DNA from: Bacteroidaceae bacterium
GTDB lineage: Bacteria; Bacteroidota; Bacteroidia; Bacteroidales; Bacteroidaceae
Length of the DNA stretch: 64,000 bases
NCBI GenBank assembly: GCA_017427185.1
Contig: JAFRTJ010000004.1
Span: 1 to 64,000 of the forward strand
Direction of reading: 5' to 3'
The notes below the pieces were generated by a model. It was not told the DNA's origin. It ran no database searches and saw only the letters and a list, made by a program, of their open reading frames with translations. Both the position numbers and the translations under genes were made by a program. Below, piece after piece: positions 21,738-41,758 of this stretch (the first letter of the stretch is position 1; the number at the start of each line of letters is the position of its first letter).

Positions 21738-23792
21738 TCAAGACACACCCCAACCATTCTTTTTCTTTGTGCCATCCCAGTTGGTAAGCTCACCGTTGGA
21801 GCCACCACCTCCTAAACTGATGCCTTCTCTTCCTCCTGACATAAGAAGCAAGTCCTTCATCAGTTCTTTCGGAACTGTCATCGCATCACAAAGTTGTCTC
21901 GTACGGGTAGCGGTAAGACCAGCCTTGAATTCGGACATGCCAGTCCATGACATTTTCTCCAATAAGTTGTTGGTAGCTGTTTTACGCTGTTCAACATCCA
22001 TCGGATCAAGGCCACGCTTGAATGCTTCAGCGACGATACCCATTGCAATGGTGTTGCCCTCCTTTGGTTGGAAATCGTTGTCTTTACGATGTGCAAAATC
22101 CTTGATGGCAGAAATGGCATCATCTATCCAACTGTCTATCTGTTGCCAGAAGTCTTTCTTGTTCTGTTGGATAGTGTTCCACAAGTCTCTTATTTCAGGA
22201 ACGGCCAGCATTTCTCGAACTTGGTTCTCTGCTTTCTCTGCACGTTGATGTTCGCTGTATGCCAGATTGCCTGAACGTACAGCCTCGGACTCGGCTTTGC
22301 CAAGCTTGGTATCGAGTTCTGCAATCTCATCGTTCTTCTGCTTGCGCAGATTAATGATGGCGGTCTCGTCTATCGTCGAGATTTTCTTCTTCAGTTGTGT
22401 GTTCTCCGCTGTCAGTCGCTCATTGGCTTTTTGTAACTGCTTGTTCTGCTCAATTATTTCTTTTGCGTCTTTCATTGCTTTCTGATAGAGCGACTTTCCC
22501 AACTTCAAGATGTCTTGCTTCTGTGCTTCCTTGGCTTCGAAGAGTGCAGTCTGCAGATCTGTGAGTATCTTCTTTATGGCTTCCTGCCGCTCTTCTCGCC
22601 ACTCCTTCTGTCCGAATGCAGGAATGGGCTTTTCGAGTTCAGCCTGTATTGCCTCGACTGCTTTCTTGACAAGGGGATCGGTTTTCAAGACAGGTACCAT
22701 CAAGTCCTCTTGCTTGATGTCCAGTATCTCGGCATATTTCTCCATTGTGGTCAGTTTGCCCTCGACTCTTTCCTTGCGCTGTTCGGCTTGTCGTGTCTCA
22801 TTCTCTATCTTGTCTTTCTCCTGTTCAAGTGCCTCCATTTCGGCTTGTGAATGTTCAAGTGATTCCTTTGCCTGACGTTCCGCTTCCAGTATTGCCTTGT
22901 TTTTGTGAACCCGTTCGCGCTGTTCCTCATCGGGTAGCATGGCAATGTCATCGCCCCGTTCCAATCCATACTTACGTCCCACTTGATTGTAATAATCAGT
23001 ATGCATCTGGTAATAGGTTCTTCCCACTGCATATTTGTCCTCTCCCCATACACGGGCGTATGATACGCATTCCTTTTCCCTCCGTTCGACTTCTGTTCTT
23101 ACGAAGTCGTTGCGGATTCCTTCGGGAAGTTTCTTCCACTCCTTATGGGAAAGTACCTTTGATTTATCATCCTTATGCACATATTTGACAGATGTACGAC
23201 CTCTGGCTTTTGTCTTTGCCACGGGGATTGTCTGGATTTGGATGTGAGGTGTGGTCTCGTCAAGATGGACATCGAAGCCGATAATATTCTTTGCTCCCCA
23301 ACGGTCACATGCCCAGTGGTAGGTGTCCATAGCCCAATCTTTGATGCCTTGTTTCAATACGACGTTGGCATTTCTTCTTTGCAGGGTAAAGTCCACGTCT
23401 TGTTCACCAAATGCAAGACGTGTCAGCACATGATGGTCACCACTGACGATGATTCCGACGGTGCAGTTTGGACTGTTGTCGGAGTAACCCATAGGATTGT
23501 TCTTGTCCTTGTAGGGCATGAAACCAAGATCGTCAAGACGCTTCTGCAAACGCTCATGAAGTGGCACGGGATTGGAACCAAGGGGAACAATCTTGCCCTT
23601 GTTGTTTATCTCAAAGTTGAGATGCTTGCGTGAGAAATCATAGTGATTATTCGTATCTTGATTTTTCAGACGGTATGTTTTCTCGTCCCATCCGCGACGT
23701 TCAGGTTCGTAGCCTTCGGCAGCAGAAAAGGACTTGGCTGGTGCGCCTACATGAATGGCGGCACGGGGTATATTGTTTCTTGATTTAGACAT
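21738..23792 (-). CDS. MobV/Pre-type relaxase (mobilization protein)
   Basis: This 684-aa protein carries the Mob_Pre domain in its first ~230 residues. Motif I-like SRKHLNFEINNKGK lies near residues 54-67, and the metal-binding/nicking region contains HLDETTPHIQIQ. This is a variant of the usual HxDExxPHxH in which the last His is replaced by Gln. Residues ~290-560 form a long charged coiled coil (EQEKDKIENETRQAEQ-like), normal for this family. It would nick one strand at oriT and lead it into a recipient cell. The hairpin-rich stretch directly upstream (23793-24099) is the natural oriT candidate. Whether the His to Gln change affects activity is unknown. Confidence 0.85.
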   Translation of the reverse strand: MSKSRNNIPRAAIHVGAPAKSFSAAEGYEPERRGWDEKTYRLKNQDTNNHYDFSRKHLNFEINNKGKIVPLGSNPVPLHERLQKRLDDLGFMPYKDKNNPMGYSDNSPNCTVGIIVSGDHHVLTRLAFGEQDVDFTLQRRNANVVLKQGIKDWAMDTYHWACDRWGAKNIIGFDVHLDETTPHIQIQTIPVAKTKARGRTSVKYVHKDDKSKVLSHKEWKKLPEGIRNDFVRTEVERREKECVSYARVWGEDKYAVGRTYYQMHTDYYNQVGRKYGLERGDDIAMLPDEEQRERVHKNKAILEAERQAKESLEHSQAEMEALEQEKDKIENETRQAEQRKERVEGKLTTMEKYAEILDIKQEDLMVPVLKTDPLVKKAVEAIQAELEKPIPAFGQKEWREERQEAIKKILTDLQTALFEAKEAQKQDILKLGKSLYQKAMKDAKEIIEQNKQLQKANERLTAENTQLKKKISTIDETAIINLRKQKNDEIAELDTKLGKAESEAVRSGNLAYSEHQRAEKAENQVREMLAVPEIRDLWNTIQQNKKDFWQQIDSWIDDAISAIKDFAHRKDNDFQPKEGNTIAMGIVAEAFKRGLDPMDVEQRKTATNNLLEKMSWTGMSEFKAGLTATRTRQLCDAMTVPKELMKDLLLMSGGREGISLGGGGSNGELTNWDGTKKKNGWGVS

Positions 23793-24099
23793 AATGTAAT
23801 TCTTTTGAAGTAATGATTAGATGTAATTCGGGTCTCGGGTGGAACCTGAGTGGAGGGTCGAGGGAGAGAGTCACTCCCTCGCAGATGCAGTCTGTCATAG
23901 ATGTCGCGGACATCTTTTCTTGTCAGGGCTGCACTGTTTGATGGGAAGCGCCTCACCCCTCGGAGAGCATAATGGGACTTTTTAAGGGAGCGAAGCGAAT
24001 CTAAAAGTCCATATTATGTTATGGGATTATTGGGAAATCCCCCTTGGCGAACGCCTCCACTCAAGTCACCAGAGAACAAGAGGATCACTTAGTGCCTCT
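23793..24099. other. oriT candidate upstream of the relaxase
   Basis: This 307-bp gene-free stretch contains several inverted repeats. The largest pairs cataatgggacttttta (23968-23984) with taaaagtccatattatg (24002-24018). Others are agggagagagtcactccct near 23863 and gggatt/aaatccc near 24024. Hairpins directly upstream of a MobV-type relaxase gene are where the origin of transfer normally lies. The nick site is not identified. Confidence 0.5.
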
Positions 24100-24759
24100 T
24101 CATCGGTTGACAGGTGACGTGGCTTTCGCCCATTCCCTGTCTCGCAGATAGACATAGAGATAGGTACGTGAACTGAGGTCACCTTGCAATCTTTGGGCAT
24201 AAGCGAATGCTGACGTTCGCTCGTCTTCGCTGAGTTGCTGCCATACACCGAATGCTTGCGATTCGTTGTCACCAATCTTCTCATAACACTCCTTCATTCG
24301 CTCAAAGGAAGAGGTGACATCGCATGCGTTGAAATCGTTGAATCCTTCTGCAATGCCAGTATCATTAGATGTATTAGCGTCTGATGATTCGGTTGGCGCT
24401 TCTTCCATTGCTTTTGGCTTTGCATTAGTAGCGTTAGGTGAATTTGCTACGTTCGTTGCGCTCGCAGTATTGGCTTTCTTTGCAGAACTATTAGCGGAAC
24501 TATTATTCCTTGCAGTTCTACACTTTGCACTCTCGCTGCATTTGCGACTTTTCTGCTCCGCAGCCATTCGCTGAGAATCCAGGTCTTGTGCAATCAAATC
24601 GAAGTAGGCTTCCAGACGCAGGTCACCAAGGTCTGTTCGTGTACCTTCTGTAGCATAGGTCACCAATGCCTTTACCAGTTTTCCCACTTCGGCATTCGGA
24701 CGTGCACATGCTACTATGAGCACGTTCGCTAAAAACTGAAATCTGTCAAGTGACTTCAT
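24100..24759 (-). CDS. Mobile-element accessory protein, unknown function
   Basis: This protein has ~219 aa when started at the internal ATG MKSLDRFQF, which is better placed than the upstream ATG at 24786. Residues ~1-65 are helical (FLANVLIVACARPNAEVGK). The middle (about 70-140) is a low-complexity Ser/Asn/Ala/Lys linker (NNSSANSSAKKANTASATN). The last ~70 residues form a second helical domain (ERMKECYEKIGDNESQAFGVW). I do not recognise a catalytic motif. Its place between the relaxase/oriT and the excisionase-like gene suggests an accessory mobilization or replication-control role, which is inference only. Confidence 0.55.
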   Translation of the reverse strand: MKSLDRFQFLANVLIVACARPNAEVGKLVKALVTYATEGTRTDLGDLRLEAYFDLIAQDLDSQRMAAEQKSRKCSESAKCRTARNNSSANSSAKKANTASATNVANSPNATNAKPKAMEEAPTESSDANTSNDTGIAEGFNDFNACDVTSSFERMKECYEKIGDNESQAFGVWQQLSEDERTSAFAYAQRLQGDLSSRTYLYVYLRDREWAKATSPVNR

Positions 24760-24791
24760 AATTGTTACTTTTTTACGGTTAAACAATAAGG

Positions 24792-25175
24792 TTAATCATG
24801 CCAGTCCGCTTTGTTCGGCTTACGTTTATGCGAAGAGAGAATAGCCTCATTCTCCTCATCAGCAGTAAGTGGTACAGTGTTCCTGCGGTTCGCCTCCAGC
24901 CATCGGTCAAGCTCGTCCTGATACAGGAGCCATCTTCTGCCAGGCTTGGTGGCCGGTATGGTACCATCCTCCAGTTTCATGTACATCGTACCCTTGGGTA
25001 TGTGCGTGTACTCGATGGCTTCCTCCACAGTCATGGGCTTGTGGCGGTTCTCCTTAGTTGGTTTGTCACTCAGTTCCTGCTGCCTTGACAGCATCGCTCT
25101 CATGCCCATCACCTCATCCCGAAGCTGGGCGACGACCTGCGGGAGGTCGTTGAATGTTACTTCTTTTTGTTCCAT
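24792..25175 (-). CDS. Excisionase-like helix-turn-helix protein
   Basis: This 127-aa protein contains a MerR/HTH_17-type DNA-binding domain in its second half: MTVEEAIEYTHIPKGTMYMK is followed by the wing GTIPATKPGRRWLLYQDELD. The N-terminal ~45 residues (QVVAQLRDEVMGMRAMLSRQ) look like a short coiled coil for dimerisation. Such proteins act as recombination directionality factors or regulators in Bacteroides mobilizable elements. Its upstream region shares a promoter-like module with the integrase gene, suggesting joint control of excision. Confidence 0.8.
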   Translation of the reverse strand: MEQKEVTFNDLPQVVAQLRDEVMGMRAMLSRQQELSDKPTKENRHKPMTVEEAIEYTHIPKGTMYMKLEDGTIPATKPGRRWLLYQDELDRWLEANRRNTVPLTADEENEAILSSHKRKPNKADWHD

Positions 25176-25197
25176 AAAATTGATGGTCTTGGATTAG

Positions 25198-25265
25198 AGA
25201 CCGGGTGCAAAGGAACTGAATGATGCAGTACTGATTCCGATTACTTCCAACCATTCATCATTAAT
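25198..25265 (-). promoter_or_regulatory. Promoter module copy 1 (excisionase-like gene)
   Basis: On the minus strand the segment running from gattaatga through taatcgga to gcatcattcagttcc and TTTGCACCC precedes the HTH gene. It closely matches the segment upstream of the integrase. TTCCTTTG resembles the -7 box (TAnnTTTG). Confidence 0.65.
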
Positions 25266-25339
25266 CAAACAATCATCAGAAAAGAACTGGAAGTTCTGGT
25301 AATAATCGGATAAAAAGTATTGGAATGGGCAAAAAGAAA

Positions 25340-25379
25340 GTGGGCGAAAACTGATGCGCAAACATCAATTTTCGCCCAC
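25340..25379. terminator. Strong hairpin in the element's intergenic region
   Basis: An 11-bp perfect stem (gtgggcgaaaa / ttttcgcccac) encloses an 18-nt loop. The loop itself contains tgatg and catca, which can extend the stem. It separates the excisionase-like gene from the membrane protein gene. Confidence 0.6.
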
Positions 25380-25493
25380 TGCGAGAGTGTGTCTATAAAA
25401 ATCTTACATTATTGGATATAAGGGAAATAGGTTATATGAAACATTGTCTGTGTTCTACAAGCTTTTATCTTGGAATCTGATAGTCCTTTGCTT

Positions 25494-25539
25494 AAAAATC
25501 AGTGAAAACGGAAAAATATTTTGCTTTTCGCTGATTTTT
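25494..25539 (-). terminator. Terminator of the membrane-protein gene
   Basis: Arms aaaaatcagtgaaaa and ttttcgctgattttt (one mismatch) form a 15-bp stem beginning 16 bp after the stop codon of the minus-strand gene at 25555. The outer T-run suits termination in either direction. Confidence 0.6.
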
Positions 25540-25554
25540 GAAAGACAAGCATGG

Positions 25555-26301
25555 TTATTCATAGTGGAAATGCCAGTCGTCTTTGTCCGGCTCATCTATC
25601 AAAATACTGCCCTTGTTGGGCTGGAACTTGAAGTTCCTTGTACTGTCTTGGGACATATCCATGAATATGGTCGGAAACATTTGCATGATGAAGTCGGCAC
25701 GGGCATAGCCATTATAGCCGTTCTTGGTGCCCAAACGCTCACCTATGTTCCATACGAAGTGACGGAGGTCAACAGTAGTCAGCTTTTGTTTAAGGCGGAC
25801 AGGCACAGGCTTGTAAGTAAAATCTTCCGTCCATTTCTGAATCTCCTCACAGAGTTTCTCCAGTTCCTCGTTGTCATAGACAAAAGGGGACATGGTGTGT
25901 CTGGCATAGTCGATGATGGCAGCAATCACCATCTGTCTTTGCTGTGCTTGTTCCTGCTCATACTCCTTACAGCGTTGGGCGTATGAGATACGTTCAACAT
26001 CGGTATCGCTATTTACTCTTTCCGATTCAACAGGCACTTCTTCCTCGATAATTTGCGGAAGAAGTGTTTGCTTGTTCCACTTTTTAGGCAGCAAATCCAC
26101 CAATACGGACTGGAACATAATGTACAACAGCCAAAGAAGGAGGTTGCACAGTAAGAATGCCGTCCACTTGGCAAGCCTGTCCTGCTGGAAATCGGCACCG
26201 ACTTTCAGGGCCACGAACATGGAGATTGTGAGGAATACCACTCCTGGGCATCCCCACAGGAGACAAAGATCTCGCAGATTAAGTGATTTCGTTGTAATCA
26301 T
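25555..26301 (-). CDS. Two-helix membrane protein of the mobilizable element, unknown function
   Basis: This 248-aa protein has two hydrophobic helices near residues 12-34 (LLWGCPGVVFLTISMFVAL) and 44-68 (WTAFLLCNLLLWLLYIMF). A soluble ~170-residue C-terminal part has charged helices (KEYEQEQAQQRQMVIAAIID) and ends DEPDKDDWHFHYE. No catalytic motif is recognised. It has its own -7 box (TAACTTTG) upstream and two hairpins downstream, so it seems to be an independent transcription unit. Proteins of this shape occur as accessory genes in Bacteroides elements; a role in entry exclusion or mating-pore contact would be speculation. Confidence 0.6.
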   Translation of the reverse strand: MITTKSLNLRDLCLLWGCPGVVFLTISMFVALKVGADFQQDRLAKWTAFLLCNLLLWLLYIMFQSVLVDLLPKKWNKQTLLPQIIEEEVPVESERVNSDTDVERISYAQRCKEYEQEQAQQRQMVIAAIIDYARHTMSPFVYDNEELEKLCEEIQKWTEDFTYKPVPVRLKQKLTTVDLRHFVWNIGERLGTKNGYNGYARADFIMQMFPTIFMDMSQDSTRNFKFQPNKGSILIDEPDKDDWHFHYE

Positions 26302-26371
26302 TTGTTATATCATTTGGTTTAACTTGTCATTATCAGTTGGAAGTTGCCCGTATTGGGGCACTTTCGGAGCA

Positions 26372-26379
26372 CAAAGTTA
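26372..26379 (-). promoter_or_regulatory. -7 box for the membrane-protein gene
   Basis: TAACTTTG on the minus strand lies ~70 bp before the start at 26301. The preceding aataatcgaag echoes the modules upstream of the integrase and excisionase-like genes. Confidence 0.6.
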
Positions 26380-26399
26380 CTTCGATTATTGCTAACAGC

Positions 26400-26586
26400 T
26401 GATGATAATTCAAATTATCTGCACCATTTTCACATAAGTTAGCCAATTGGTTCTAAATCATACTCGAAATAGTACCAATATCATACTCAGAATGAGGTGT
26501 ATATGATAAATGGAGGGAAAGAAAAAGGGAGAAACATAGCCTCTCCCGATTCTACATATATACATATAATAGGTAGACTATGTGTG
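26400..26586. other. Gene-free stretch downstream of the integrase (possible attachment/arm sites)
   Basis: This AT-rich segment has a short palindrome (gataattcaaattatc), two direct copies of atcatactc about 25 bp apart, and a gggaga/tctccc hairpin. It is not coding. In integrative elements the region beside int often holds the attachment site and integrase arm sites, but no core repeat was confirmed. Confidence 0.3.
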
Positions 26587-27732
26587 CTACTGTCCCACCA
26601 CTTTCAACTGCACCGTCTTAGTCGGTTTGAGTGTAATGCGGTTGACAGACTCTCTCTTTGAGTCATCTGCCATGGTTGCATATATCTGTGTGGTCGATAC
26701 GTTCTTGTGCCCCAGCATATGTTGGACGGTATAGACACTTGTACCTGCATCCACCTGTAATGAGCCGAAGGTATGGCGGCTGCAATGGAACGAGATTTTC
26801 TTGGTGATACCAGCGGCTTTCAGCCAATTCTTCAAGGGTGTCTGCGTCATTTTGTCTGAGAATCCTTCGAACACTTTACCTGTTCCGCTGCCGCCAATCA
26901 GTTCCAGTGCCTCGTCACTGATGGGATTATTCACAAGTTCCTTGGTCTTCTGCATACGAAGAGTGACGTACATTCCTCCATCACCATATGGTTGTATGTT
27001 CTCCCATGTGAGCTGACGAATGTCGCTCTTTCTCAATCCTGTCAAACAGGCAAAGAGGAAAGCTGTCTTCAGCACGGGATATTCACATGGGGTGTTCGCC
27101 AACCTGACAAGTTCATCCTTGGACAGGTGTTCTTTCTCTGTCGGTATAGTATCTATACGCTCCAAGAAACCATTGGGATTTTCCATAATTTTGTGCTCCC
27201 TGTAGGCGGTGTGAAGCACAGCACGAAAGGTTGACCAGTAGCCAGCAACGCTATTGATGTGCAACTTGTGTTCTGTGTGGATGGTCTGCGGAGCGGTCAG
27301 CAAATAATCACGGAACTTGTTGCACAGGTCAACATTGATTTCATCGAAACGGCACTTGCCGTTGGCAAACCGCTCGAAGTGCTTATAGACGTGCTGCCAC
27401 TTGCAGTTCTTCTTGTCTGCCTTCATCTTGAAGTAGGCAAGGAAGTCGCCCTTCATCTTGTCTCGGTCAAAGAAGTCATACCTTTCATTGACTATGGACT
27501 CATAACGACGGCATCGGAGGGCTTCTGCCTTCTCGCGCATACGGTCGTTGTAGTCTCGTTCACGCTGGTTCTTCGGCTTGGCATAAATGTAGATACCAAG
27601 GGATTCATGACGCATAACCTTCATGGTCGATTCGTCACGATAGCCTGGGTAGTAGTCCAGATAGAAGGACAACTGTTCTCCGCCTTTGATTTTCCGTGTG
27701 CGAAGGGTCACGGTCTTACAGATGTTACTCAT
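26587..27732 (-). CDS. Tyrosine recombinase / integrase
   Basis: This 381-aa phage-type site-specific recombinase of the Bacteroidetes family has a SAM-like arm-binding/core-binding region around residues 90-190. The catalytic domain contains the first Arg in LTGLRKSDIRQLTW, the HxxR box in HCSRHTFGSLQVDAG, then GHKNVSTTQIYATM with the nucleophile Tyr. All catalytic residues appear intact. It would integrate and excise the surrounding element, probably with the excisionase-like HTH protein. The start follows a promoter module shared with that gene. The length is normal for the family. Confidence 0.93.
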   Translation of the reverse strand: MSNICKTVTLRTRKIKGGEQLSFYLDYYPGYRDESTMKVMRHESLGIYIYAKPKNQRERDYNDRMREKAEALRCRRYESIVNERYDFFDRDKMKGDFLAYFKMKADKKNCKWQHVYKHFERFANGKCRFDEINVDLCNKFRDYLLTAPQTIHTEHKLHINSVAGYWSTFRAVLHTAYREHKIMENPNGFLERIDTIPTEKEHLSKDELVRLANTPCEYPVLKTAFLFACLTGLRKSDIRQLTWENIQPYGDGGMYVTLRMQKTKELVNNPISDEALELIGGSGTGKVFEGFSDKMTQTPLKNWLKAAGITKKISFHCSRHTFGSLQVDAGTSVYTVQHMLGHKNVSTTQIYATMADDSKRESVNRITLKPTKTVQLKVVGQ

Positions 27733-27781
27733 ACATGTATTTTTATTATTGTTGATAATTCAAGGTGGAGCGTTTCTCCAC

Positions 27782-27850
27782 GGGTGCAAAGGAACTCAAT
27801 GATGCGGTGCTGACTCCGATTATTCACGATAATCCGTCATTAATCATTCA
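27782..27850 (-). promoter_or_regulatory. Promoter module copy 2 (integrase gene)
   Basis: This segment is homologous to 25198-25265: the minus strand reads gattaatga, then taatcgga, then gcatcattgagttcc, ending TTTGCACCCG about 50 bp before the integrase ATG. It suggests shared regulation of int and the excisionase-like gene. Confidence 0.65.
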
Positions 27851-27862
27851 AAATGGTAGAAA

Positions 27863-28870
27863 TCAGAATCCAGCAGCCCTTCTTTCTGCCATCACCCGCT
27901 TTACATCGGAACGAAGAAGCAGGTTGATTCTGCCAACCTTGGTCTTCTCAATGTGCTTTACATTGACGATGTGGCAGATGTTAGCTTTTGTCAGCCCATA
28001 AAGTTCCTGCACCTGTTCAACGGTATAATAGTTTTCGTCTGATAATAGGTCGGTACGGCGAAGTTCATCAAAGTGACTTTGGGAGTAGTAGGTACGTCCG
28101 TACTCGCGCTTGGTCGGTATCTTGTGACGATGGGCGTATGAACGGACAGCAGTAAGGTTGATGCCATAGCGGTTTGCAACCTCTTGGGGAGTAAGCCAGT
28201 CGACAATGGCATCAAGGTCAATGCAAGTGCCAAAAACGGCCTCAATGTGTTTCTTGCTATAGTAGTTTCGGCCAGCAATTCGGCACATGGGTATCTGATG
28301 ACGCTTAGCAGAAGCATAGAGCCAAGATTGTTTGACTTTATAGGTCTGCATCACTTCCTCGCCAGAGTAGTATTCAAGGACTTCATCTGTGGGTAGTACA
28401 TTCTTAGTGTCTTTTCTCGAAGACGTTCTTTGTTTCTTGGATACTACCTTTTTCGGTTTTGAACAGGGAATGACCCGATTGTAAGGATTGCTATCAAACA
28501 TCTTTTCAATGTCACTCCTGCGGACAAGAGCCATTCGGCTACTTAACCGAGAGGCTGGCAGCTTTCCCTGCTCAACAAGTTTATAAACATACTGACGGGT
28601 ACAGCCTAAAAGAATGGCTGCTTTAGAGAAGGTCAAGTACTCCTGTTGCTGGAGTTCCATCACTGGCTCAATGGCACGGAGGAATTCACGTTGCCTTTTC
28701 TTCTTGCTTTCCTTTGCTTGCTCGGCACATTCCTCCGAACAATACTTCTGCGTTCCGCTGTTCGGAACAAACATTTTGCCACAAAGGGCACACTTTCTGC
28801 TCTTTGACATACTTGCGATATTTATGGGTTCAACATGTTCTTTGTTGTACCTCTCCGCAAGTAAACTCAT
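27863..28870 (-). CDS. Zinc-ribbon multi-HTH DNA-binding protein
   Basis: This 335-aa protein may instead start at the internal ATG 28810 (MSKSRKCALCGKMF). A treble-clef/zinc-ribbon-like motif lies near the N-terminus (CALCGKMFVPNSGTQKYCSE). Three or more HTH_17-type modules follow: one with FSKAAILLGCTRQYVYKLVE, one with QEVANRYGINLTAVRSYAHR and one with VEQVQELYGLTKANICHIVN. Serial excisionase-like HTH modules suggest binding to repeated sites, for example at element ends or oriT. It is transcribed towards the integrase from a -7 box at 29035-29042 with a long (~160 nt) leader. No enzymatic domain is seen. Confidence 0.75.
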   Translation of the reverse strand: MSLLAERYNKEHVEPINIASMSKSRKCALCGKMFVPNSGTQKYCSEECAEQAKESKKKRQREFLRAIEPVMELQQQEYLTFSKAAILLGCTRQYVYKLVEQGKLPASRLSSRMALVRRSDIEKMFDSNPYNRVIPCSKPKKVVSKKQRTSSRKDTKNVLPTDEVLEYYSGEEVMQTYKVKQSWLYASAKRHQIPMCRIAGRNYYSKKHIEAVFGTCIDLDAIVDWLTPQEVANRYGINLTAVRSYAHRHKIPTKREYGRTYYSQSHFDELRRTDLLSDENYYTVEQVQELYGLTKANICHIVNVKHIEKTKVGRINLLLRSDVKRVMAERRAAGF

Positions 28871-29042: not shown

Positions 29043-29158
29043 TGGGGAATTTCCGAAGCAACCAAAAATGCCTTCCGAAGTGTTAAAATCTAAAAGTAGC
29101 TGTAATACAATGGTTTATGTTTGGTTGTTTTGTGTTATTCATGGTTGTTTAGAGGTCT

Positions 29159-29487
29159 CTAAATACATCCAGAGAACGCAGACGCACCAATGCTCGTCAC
29201 ACTATTTGGAATAGTAACAGAGGTGAGAGCGTAGCATCCAATGAAAGCACAACTGTTGATACGGGTCACATTATAGGAAATCCCATTATAAGTGATTGAT
29301 GATGGAATTTTCACAGAACCAGAATAACAATTATCAATAGGAGACCGTATGTGCCTTGTTTACGAGTTACTATAGCTTCTTTTGTTTCTGAATTAACATC
29401 ATAGTAGATTCCTCCTACTTGGACATAGCGTGCTTTTACAAATATTGGAAATAAAATTAAAACAAAAAGTAAGATTTCCTTTTTCAT
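29159..29487 (-). pseudogene. BspA-like leucine-rich-repeat surface protein relic
   Basis: The minus strand starts ATG at 29487 with a signal peptide (MKKEILLFVLILFPIFVKA), then YVQVGGIYYDVNSET. This frame ends in a stop; the neighbouring frame continues with [17 protein letters not shown] and [20 protein letters not shown], the classic LRR_5/BspA repeat. It then stops at GC-I-stop at 29159. A frameshift plus loss of the rest of the gene make it a relic. The loss coincides with the presumed right edge of the mobilizable element. Confidence 0.7.
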
Positions 29488-29558: not shown

Positions 29559-30125
29559 TTAATATTGAAATTCTTCTTCAAAAGTAGAATAAATATTCTG
29601 TATTTCCTCGTTGACTATCGATAAGATTTTATTAGCAGGTCGTAACAATCGGACTTGAAATTCAGAAAACGATTTGGCCCCATGGAATATGTTGCATCTC
29701 ATAAAGTAAAGTGTTTGTAAAAGGGAAAGCAACATGCTTTGATGATTTCCACTATTCCAGTTCTCTGATAGTTTAGGGTCTGTTGTGCCATCTGACGACA
29801 AAACAGAAAAGTTATTAGTTATAATTACTGAACCAAGTTCTTTGGCAGATATGTCAATTCTTTTTATAAGATTGTTAAGATTGGAAGAATAATTACAGAG
29901 CAAATCGCAGATTACTTCAGTACAATATTTTCTGTCTTTTCCTACTTTTTCCTTTTGTGGTTTAATCACATTAACTAAAGCAGCATAAATTATGAAATGT
30001 GATATGAATTTGTCGAACTCATATCTTTTCTCGTCATTTTTTATTTTCCTTACCTTTCGTTTCCAATTTTGAACAAATTTTTTGACATATGGAAAAGCGA
30101 GAAAATCGAAATCCTCATAAACCAT
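29559..30125 (-). CDS. Small HEPN-like protein, candidate RNase/defence factor
   Basis: This 188-aa, AT-rich, largely helical protein has no signal peptide or membrane segment. Near residue 143 it reads LYFMRCNIFHGAKSF: the RCNIFH hexapeptide fits the Rx4H motif of HEPN domains, and the following GAK and the leucine-rich helix are typical of the RNNLFHG-type HEPN proteins. HEPN domains cut or bind RNA in many toxin-antitoxin and phage-defence systems. No partner antitoxin protein is next to it. Instead a structured RNA with its own terminator lies 77 bp upstream on the same strand. Family membership is inferred from one motif and the helical pattern; the function is unproven. Confidence 0.55.
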   Translation of the reverse strand: MVYEDFDFLAFPYVKKFVQNWKRKVRKIKNDEKRYEFDKFISHFIIYAALVNVIKPQKEKVGKDRKYCTEVICDLLCNYSSNLNNLIKRIDISAKELGSVIITNNFSVLSSDGTTDPKLSENWNSGNHQSMLLSLLQTLYFMRCNIFHGAKSFSEFQVRLLRPANKILSIVNEEIQNIYSTFEEEFQY

Positions 30126-30202
30126 GTTGCTGACTTTATATATTTTTCCCTATGACCCCCAAGTTCAGGCTTTACTTTATTTGTCACAGTTAATTACATA
30201 AC

Positions 30203-30525
30203 AAAAAACGTGGGTATCCACCTTCTGCTCGTCCACTGGTTGAGGCCTACCACAGCCCACGTTGGTTGACGAACAGAGTGATACCCACGCAATGTATTGC
30301 TGATTCACCCGTAAGTGTGCGATGAAGGTATGGATAACCTTCACGCACACAACGGGATACACATATTCAGCATACCCGTGGCATCATACTCCGCATTGTC
30401 TTTGACCAACGTTAGAATGTGGTAATTTCAACCAGTCAATCGACAAAGCATCGTGTGACGCTTTTCCGTTATGTAGTGCCCTGCCCAATATTTCCGGCTC
30501 TCACCAGAGCCATCATCAGGCAGTT
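30203..30525 (-). ncRNA. Highly structured ~320-nt candidate non-coding RNA
   Basis: Read on the minus strand from a clean -7 box, the RNA folds into successive domains. A 5' stem pairs CUGCC (30523-30519) with GGCAG (30485-30481) and contains a GGCUC/GAGCC hairpin. An AAAGCGUC/GAUGCUUU hairpin follows, then nested UUGUC/GACAA and UUGAC/GUCAA stems. A long arm pairs CCCGU, GUGUGCG and GAAGGU (30356-30337) with their complements (30329-30308). The 3' hairpin pairs gatacccacg (30280-30289) with cgtgggtatc (30209-30218), has an inner 10-bp stem, and is followed by U6 (30208-30203). No good ORF exists. It is not recognisably tmRNA, RNase P RNA, SRP RNA or a riboswitch. Confidence 0.65.
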
Positions 30526-30531
30526 GCGATG

Positions 30532-30539
30532 CAAAATTA
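30532..30539 (-). promoter_or_regulatory. -7 box of the candidate ncRNA
   Basis: TAATTTTG on the minus strand is followed by catcgcaactgcc, placing the RNA start near 30525. An upstream TTG-rich stretch lies at about the -33 distance. Confidence 0.65.
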
Positions 30540-30964: not shown

Positions 30965-31090
30965 AATCAACAAATCAACGATGACGATGACGAGGACGAT
31001 GACGAGGACGAGGACGAAAACGAGGACGATGACGATGAGGATGAGGATGAGGATGAGGAGAACGAGGACTGGCAAACAGTAACGACTTAA
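30965..31090 (+). pseudogene. Acidic C-terminal tail remnant
   Basis: Directly after the palindromic element a frame reads NQQIN, then ~25 nearly uninterrupted Asp/Glu codons (GAT/GAC/GAG repeats), then NEDWQTVTT-stop. It has no start codon. It looks like the last part of a longer gene whose body has been lost. On the minus strand it gives a spurious Val/Leu/Ile-rich frame. Confidence 0.45.
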
Positions 31091-31158: not shown

Positions 31159-31275
31159 TCAAATAAATTTGGCATTTCGCTCGTTTATTCGTAACTTTGA
31201 ACGTATGTTCGAAATTTCTCTCACTCGGAAATGCTCAAATAAATTTGGCATTTCGCTCGTTTATTCGTAATTTTG
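31159..31275 (+). promoter_or_regulatory. Duplicated promoter: 76-bp direct repeat with two -7 boxes
   Basis: The ~35-bp segment that runs from tcaaataaatttggcat through ttcgctcg to tttattcgtaa occurs at 31159 and 31235, 76 bp apart. Each copy runs into a -7 box: TAACTTTG at 31192-31199 and TAATTTTG at 31268-31275. The second lies 20 bp before the ATG at 31296. Tandem copies imply two start points or a duplicated regulator site. Confidence 0.75.
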
Positions 31276-41481: not shown

Positions 41482-41523
41482 ATTTTTTTTAACCTTAAAT
41501 TTGGCGGAAACAAGAATATTGAA

Positions 41524-41531
41524 TACCTTTG
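41524..41531 (+). promoter_or_regulatory. -7 box of the B12 uptake operon
   Basis: TACCTTTG lies just before the riboswitch, so the transcript starts at about 41537 with the aptamer at its 5' end. Confidence 0.65.
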
Positions 41532-41534
41532 CAG

Positions 41535-41690
41535 TCAGAATAGCGGAAATGGGAATCTGGTGTGAATCCAGAACTGTCCCGCAGCTGTAAGTTCCGTTGA
41601 ATCCGTGATGGGAAGAAAGCCACTGGAGCAACATTCTGGGAAGGCATCATCAGTCAGGAGGAACAAGTCAGAAAACCTACCGCCAATTCT
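41535..41690 (+). promoter_or_regulatory. Cobalamin (AdoCbl) riboswitch
   Basis: Conserved blocks of the B12 aptamer appear in order: gggaatctggtg with gaatccagaactg, the core cccgcagctgtaa, gttccg, the gccactgg block with ctgggaaggc, and the B12-box-like agtcaggagg...acctaccgcc at 41650-41684. It precedes the B12 uptake operon by ~70 bp, the standard place for repression of transport genes when cobalamin is plentiful. Confidence 0.9.
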
Positions 41691-41758
41691 ATGTTATAAC
41701 CATTTAACTAATGCGCGAGGACGTGTTTGTATAACTAATTAAAATAAATGTAAAGAAA

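Follow-up and report, generated by a model that had tools for sequence, protein, structure and literature searches.

A conserved structured leader RNA ahead of exchangeable accessory genes in Bacteroidaceae and Prevotellaceae

What is the role of an ornate RNA of about 320 nt that lies directly in front of a gene for a HEPN-like protein? Such a pair is found on the minus strand of the window, by which we mean the whole stretch of 64,000 nucleotides analysed here, and the original prediction regarded it as a dedicated RNA-protein cassette, possibly a defence or toxin-antitoxin-like system. Below we describe the RNA, its distribution, the genes behind it and a possible mode of action.

A structured RNA with covarying helices

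The RNA itself could be confirmed: it comprises 323 nt on the minus strand and has covarying helices, and its minimum free energy (MFE) of -140.8 kcal/mol compares with a mean of -97.6 kcal/mol for shuffled sequences (z -10.5), none of 100 shuffles being equal. The predicted -7 promoter was located in front of it, and the start of the HEPN-like ORF (30125) follows 76–77 nt past the U-run on the same strand, in agreement with the expected distance of about 77 bp. The features of the locus are as follows.

30532–30539, minus strand: leader promoter, -7 box TAATTTTG; TAnnTTTG at the equivalent site in 113 of 129 homologues
30481–30523, minus strand: variable 5' domain with hairpin CTGCC...GGGCAG; paired in the MFE fold, sequence varying among homologues
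30202–30466, minus strand: conserved RNA core, corresponding to the 264-position covariance model R1 (E 2e-61 in its own genome)
30445–30464, minus strand: P1 hairpin AAAGCGTC/GATGCTTT; 95% of cells paired in alignment A2, mostly invariant
30405–30436, minus strand: 5' strands of H2 (30428–30436), H3 (30418–30424) and H4 (30405–30410); top covarying pairs among 127 sequences
30375–30405, minus strand: highly conserved stretch TCAAAGAC...GCCACGGG including strand a (30377–30385), from the conservation profile
30315–30350, minus strand: P5 hairpin GTGTGCG...CGCACAC; 92% of cells paired, near-invariant
30280–30289, minus strand: strand b, the 5' side of T1 (CGTGGGTATC); alignment helix
30268–30277, minus strand: 5' strand of T2, partner 30224–30233; 96% of cells paired, four pairs changed on both sides
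30235–30266, minus strand: T-loop with the 3' strands of H4 (30261–30266), H3 (30248–30254) and H2 (30235–30243); alignment and covariation
30209–30218, minus strand: strand c GATACCCACG, the 3' side of T1, complementary also to loop d; alignment and covariation
30203–30208, minus strand: U-run behind the T1/T2 stem, which may form an intrinsic terminator with it; nearly all homologues retain the T-run
30149–30169, minus strand: pre-start hairpin, its loop d GGGGGTC (30154–30160) pairing with strand c; c·d covariation, cognate versus permuted loops
29559–30125, minus strand: 188-aa HEPN-like gene (RCNIFHG motif), cargo of the window leader; ORF and motif
29137–29487, minus strand: broken BspA-type leucine-rich-repeat gene 3' of the HEPN-like gene; frame with stops

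Next door, mobilizable-element-like genes encode a Mob_Pre-like protein, HTH_17 proteins and a tyrosine integrase (21738–28870, minus strand), and a low-complexity GAYGAS repeat, acidic and DDDE-like if translated, and two copies of CAAATAAATTTGGCATTTCGCTCGTTTATTCGTAA are located at 30977–31070 and about 31160–31270.

In an alignment of 21 sequences 88.9% of the cells were paired and 147 were changed on both sides, as compared to 55 in shuffles (0 of 500 as high) and 12–46 in slid structures. An unsupervised scan of 127 sequences placed the strongest covarying pairs in H2, H3, H4, T1, T2 and c·d. The latter pairing is present in 91.7% of the cells with double changes in four of its seven pairs, and cognate c·d loops beat permuted ones (mean run 5.6 vs 4.6, with a maximum of 4.9 over 200 permutations). 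H4 was paired in 57% of the cells of the 19-sequence alignment A1 versus about 85% on the larger alignment, and strands a and b can pair with weak covariation. The conserved architecture consists of P1, P5, the long-range H2/H3/H4 helix, the T1/T2 stem and the hairpin past the U-run, a set that replaces the five local helical domains proposed originally, among which the last hairpin had been missed. By eye, two local hairpins, P2 and T3, had seemed to expose H3 in the form of kissing loops, which was unsupported as aligned. The T1/T2 stem and U-run were not flagged by a standard terminator scan; the loop of this stem is longer than 30 nt. As G-U cells are in excess over A-C cells (111 vs 45), the structure acts as an RNA of the minus, that is the leader, strand. 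A folded single-stranded DNA site was rejected, as this bias and the conserved promoter favour RNA.

Distribution of the RNA and its position ahead of genes

With scoring limited to five candidates per genome, the covariance model R1 (264 positions, 21 sequences) gave matches in 257 of the 399 family genomes, and 22 of the 30 genera were represented; several leader copies per family genome are common. Among genomes drawn from the order 37 of 295 had matches, often with weaker scores. The window's own genome carries three copies of the RNA according to blastn (100, 86 and 69% identity), and 23 of 139 genus genomes contain matches. Named carriers include Bacteroides finegoldii DSM 17565, Phocaeicola coprocola DSM 17136, Xylanibacter ruminicola D31d and X. 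caecicola. In distant families the RNA is reduced to about 160 nt (read by eye): P1, the T stem, an H2/H3-like pairing and the hairpin after the T-run are retained, whereas much of the conserved middle is missing.

No Rfam family was found by cmscan at the gathering threshold for 30202–30530, where chance-level matches alone appeared up to E 5, and leader cores from 20 distant loci likewise gave no Rfam match; with no Rfam 15 match to the leader, a known RNA family was rejected. The terms searched also retrieved no matching RNA from the main texts of the papers on the B. thetaiotaomicron transcriptome and the 2021 microbiome RNA survey (PMC7366714, PMC10994844, PMC8040213). Among phages and plasmids blastn found no match to the window RNA, and from 14 pattern matches in IMG/VR the model retrieves only one, which is truncated at a contig end. 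As these viral pattern matches are chance matches to a palindromic 20-mer, a phage- or plasmid-borne element was rejected. The covariance search against Rfam and relatives that had been proposed with the prediction thus ended with strong covariation and no Rfam family: the leader RNA is real and conserved, and it lies outside the public RNA family libraries searched.

Counting codirectional ORFs of at least 80 aa with a start within 420 nt, we found one behind the RNA in 116 of 125 loci with room, and 64 of them start at +60 to +80 after the U-run. The mirrored upstream region, used as control, gave 38 of 113 loci with two in this range. The RNA has a fixed position ahead of a codirectional gene, as is characteristic of a leader RNA. 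Furthermore, a TAnnTTTG motif lies ahead of the RNA at 113 of the 129 loci, as compared to 3.9% of control windows, and one of 83 loci has it in the interval from the U-run to the start codon. With a -7 box before the RNA and almost none between its U-run and the gene, expression of the gene thus seems to require that the RNA be transcribed first. That the HEPN-like gene has no -7 box of its own, as predicted, proved to be general in the family, and its suspected reliance on read-through is consistent with the distribution of promoters and -7 boxes as judged by sequence. The same numbers argue for a 5' leader and against a separate sRNA, which was rejected.

Cargo genes and their exchange

The first genes behind the leader (n = 103) include about 25 DNA methyltransferases (13 C5 DNA methylases, eight Dam/D12 methylases and four of Eco57I type), two DISARM DrmD, two putAbiC, six BspA leucine-rich-repeat proteins, six acyltransferase-3 and two glycosyltransferase 2 proteins, as well as many lipoprotein-like proteins and proteins of no recognised family; these proportions are approximate, since a large share of the loci come from one pattern search. 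As 31 relative genomes hold 35 C5-methylase matches, roughly one per genome, the enrichment of C5 methylases amounts to about two orders of magnitude. The cargo genes share no pathway, which is unusual for a metabolite riboswitch, and the RNA apparently serves any gene located behind it as an on/off leader. Leaders of C5-methylase operons in six loci (L047, L055, L093, L094, L044 and L108) share an extra conserved stretch of about 100 nt between hairpin and gene, which translates as a spurious ORF start and is possibly another RNA domain.

The cargo in the window carries the HEPN-type motif R-C-N-I-F-H-G, the criterion for a HEPN protein being an Rx4-6H motif within an all-helical domain. Its AlphaFold model is all-helical with low confidence (mean pLDDT 48.8), and the ORF gave no Pfam, PADLOC, NCBIfam or PDB sequence match. 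Because of this low confidence, the label "HEPN-like" taken over from the prediction rests on the motif. The sole HEPN relative among 301 family genomes (G325; 49% identical, RCNIFH motif conserved) is likewise found behind the leader RNA and before a BspA gene. Locus L297 has an intact BspA gene where the window has a broken one, and the order RNA, Abi/HEPN-like or unnamed gene, BspA recurs in L033, L043, L045 and L297.

Could RNA and HEPN protein nevertheless form a toxin-antitoxin or defence cassette, in which the RNA inhibits the protein in a type III-like manner? The order of promoter, RNA, terminator and protein gene would fit, being similar to the RNA, terminator and protein gene of ToxIN, as would the only HEPN relative in 301 genomes being again located behind the RNA. 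However, the tandem short RNA repeats of type III systems are absent, and the genes behind most homologous RNAs encode neither toxins nor HEPN proteins, with glycosyltransferases, acyltransferases, lipoproteins and DNA methyltransferases occupying the same slot, so that we regard this explanation as highly improbable. HEPN is one of many cargos, as the genes following homologous RNAs belong to dozens of unrelated families, the outcome that the original prediction itself had named as speaking against its cassette. Its link to defence survives in part: defence genes are enriched behind the RNA, but RNA and HEPN do not form a dedicated pair.

By sequence comparison, leader and cargo are evolutionarily uncoupled. 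In 252 locus pairs the two leaders share 80% identity or more, and in 162 of these the first genes are unrelated. In L181 and L150 the leaders are 98–100% identical with divergence past the leader, and in L194 and L227, both from one genome, the final approximately 100 nt of the leader are identical and the genes behind unrelated. Two species (L118/L180, also L312/L313) have a common 4.4-kb accessory block of four genes in unrelated surroundings, with the cargo being 98–100% identical from the RNA end on (part of it compared position by position) and the leader about 75–80%. No terminal repeats or recombinase were found at this one sharp-edged block, the one examined, and a mobile element with terminal repeats was rejected on this basis.

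Such exchange would also be expected if the leader were chiefly the constant end of a gene cassette whose cargo is swapped by homologous recombination, with RNA regulation being secondary. The many similar leaders with unrelated first genes, the identity breaks at or near the leader end and the shared block with cargo closer than leader all agree with this explanation, but the one block examined showed neither terminal repeats nor a recombinase, and recombination alone leaves the covarying helices, the promoter and the switch strands unexplained, while the G-U bias favours RNA. As the main explanation we therefore consider it unlikely, yet it is compatible with the bistable leader described below. 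Integron gene cassettes show a similar combination of a constant element beside exchangeable accessory cargo, but the element described here is located 5', transcribed and RNA-structured, the cassettes are not arrayed and no attC or integrase was noticed, the boundaries examined for repeats being those of the L118/L180 block, where there were none.

A putative two-state leader

In our opinion the RNA is likely a cis-acting bistable attenuator-type leader ahead of exchangeable defence and surface cargo, with termination, switching and its input being predicted features. H2–H4 pairs core positions 31–62 with 201–232, which are exactly the loop closed by T1/T2. As a helix of this length is hard to fit linkerless into that loop, H2–H4 and T1/T2 should compete at least partly, and they are probably mutually exclusive on geometric grounds, a pseudoknot with all helices formed being also possible. 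Forced folds are about 4 kcal/mol apart on average, of about -105 kcal/mol, with either sign among the 21 sequences. Since 233–259 are transcribed after 201–232, H2–H4 could form first and T1/T2 would need help.

Transcription would start at the -7 promoter and cross the RNA before reaching the gene. In the first fold, H2-H3-H4 would disrupt T1/T2 and the polymerase would read through, whereas in the second T1/T2 would close just before the U-run and transcription would stop. In the read-through transcript strand c, released from b, may pair with hairpin loop d about 20–30 nt before the start codon, resulting in a second, translational layer of control. The choice of fold would be set by some input (a ligand, a protein, or the state of polymerase or ribosome), perhaps acting via the conserved stretch between H4 and P5, and the HEPN-like gene in the window would be one cargo of this leader.

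Alternatively, the RNA might resemble put or EAR RNA and act in cis on RNA polymerase, causing processive antitermination or relieving polarity, and thereby aid the transcription of long horizontally acquired operons. It does head accessory operons, e.g. R-M and DISARM drmD, and its elaborate fold is constant while the cargo varies. However, the cargo is in many cases just one short gene, the leader itself contains a U-run stem as well as a hairpin directed at the start codon, and it shows no Rfam similarity to EAR, making such a function rather improbable. The bistable leader resembles attenuators and riboswitches as a kind in its 5' position, own upstream promoter, two probably competing folds, U-run stem and near-start hairpin, and differs from them in having no Rfam match, no cargo pathway in common and a leader uncoupled from its cargo, as well as in strand c, which would alternate between partner b and a copy of b in the downstream loop. 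In the cobalamin riboswitch the receptor domain forms a kissing interaction with a hairpin located near the start codon, which is similar to the arrangement proposed for the leader, but there is no Rfam similarity and cargo and architecture differ. A cobalamin riboswitch is present elsewhere in the window (41488–41698, plus strand; RF00174, 90.9 bits).

The DUF805 and DUF805b RNAs (RF03081, RF02914) are cis-regulatory RNAs in Rfam and occur in leader-bearing Bacteroidales loci, but they are distinct and short (68 and 35 positions), and neither the leader core nor the window contains a match to them. Both were observed downstream of the leader (L281:2471-2539, minus strand, and L194:2254-2291, plus strand), so that leader and DUF805-type RNA may both act on one gene. 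In L281 the DUF805-type RNA is located between a short-form leader and the gene.

Tentatively, the bistable leader could even be the core of a general platform for RNA-led expression, which would respond to one shared signal (e.g. infection, or polymerase or ribosome stress), release R-M, DISARM, Abi/HEPN or surface-modifying cargo and obtain new cargo by recombination at the leader 3' end, a possibility that we regard as fairly unlikely.

In summary, an RNA of about 330 nt with covarying helices is present in about two thirds of the sampled Bacteroidaceae and Prevotellaceae genomes and absent from Rfam 15, and the expression of accessory defence and surface genes in these gut bacteria seems to be under its control. 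To our knowledge, little is understood of how Bacteroidales regulate their restriction-modification and abortive-infection genes. The leader offers one common and directly testable control element for such genes, and its structure suggests a clear two-state design that is testable base by base.
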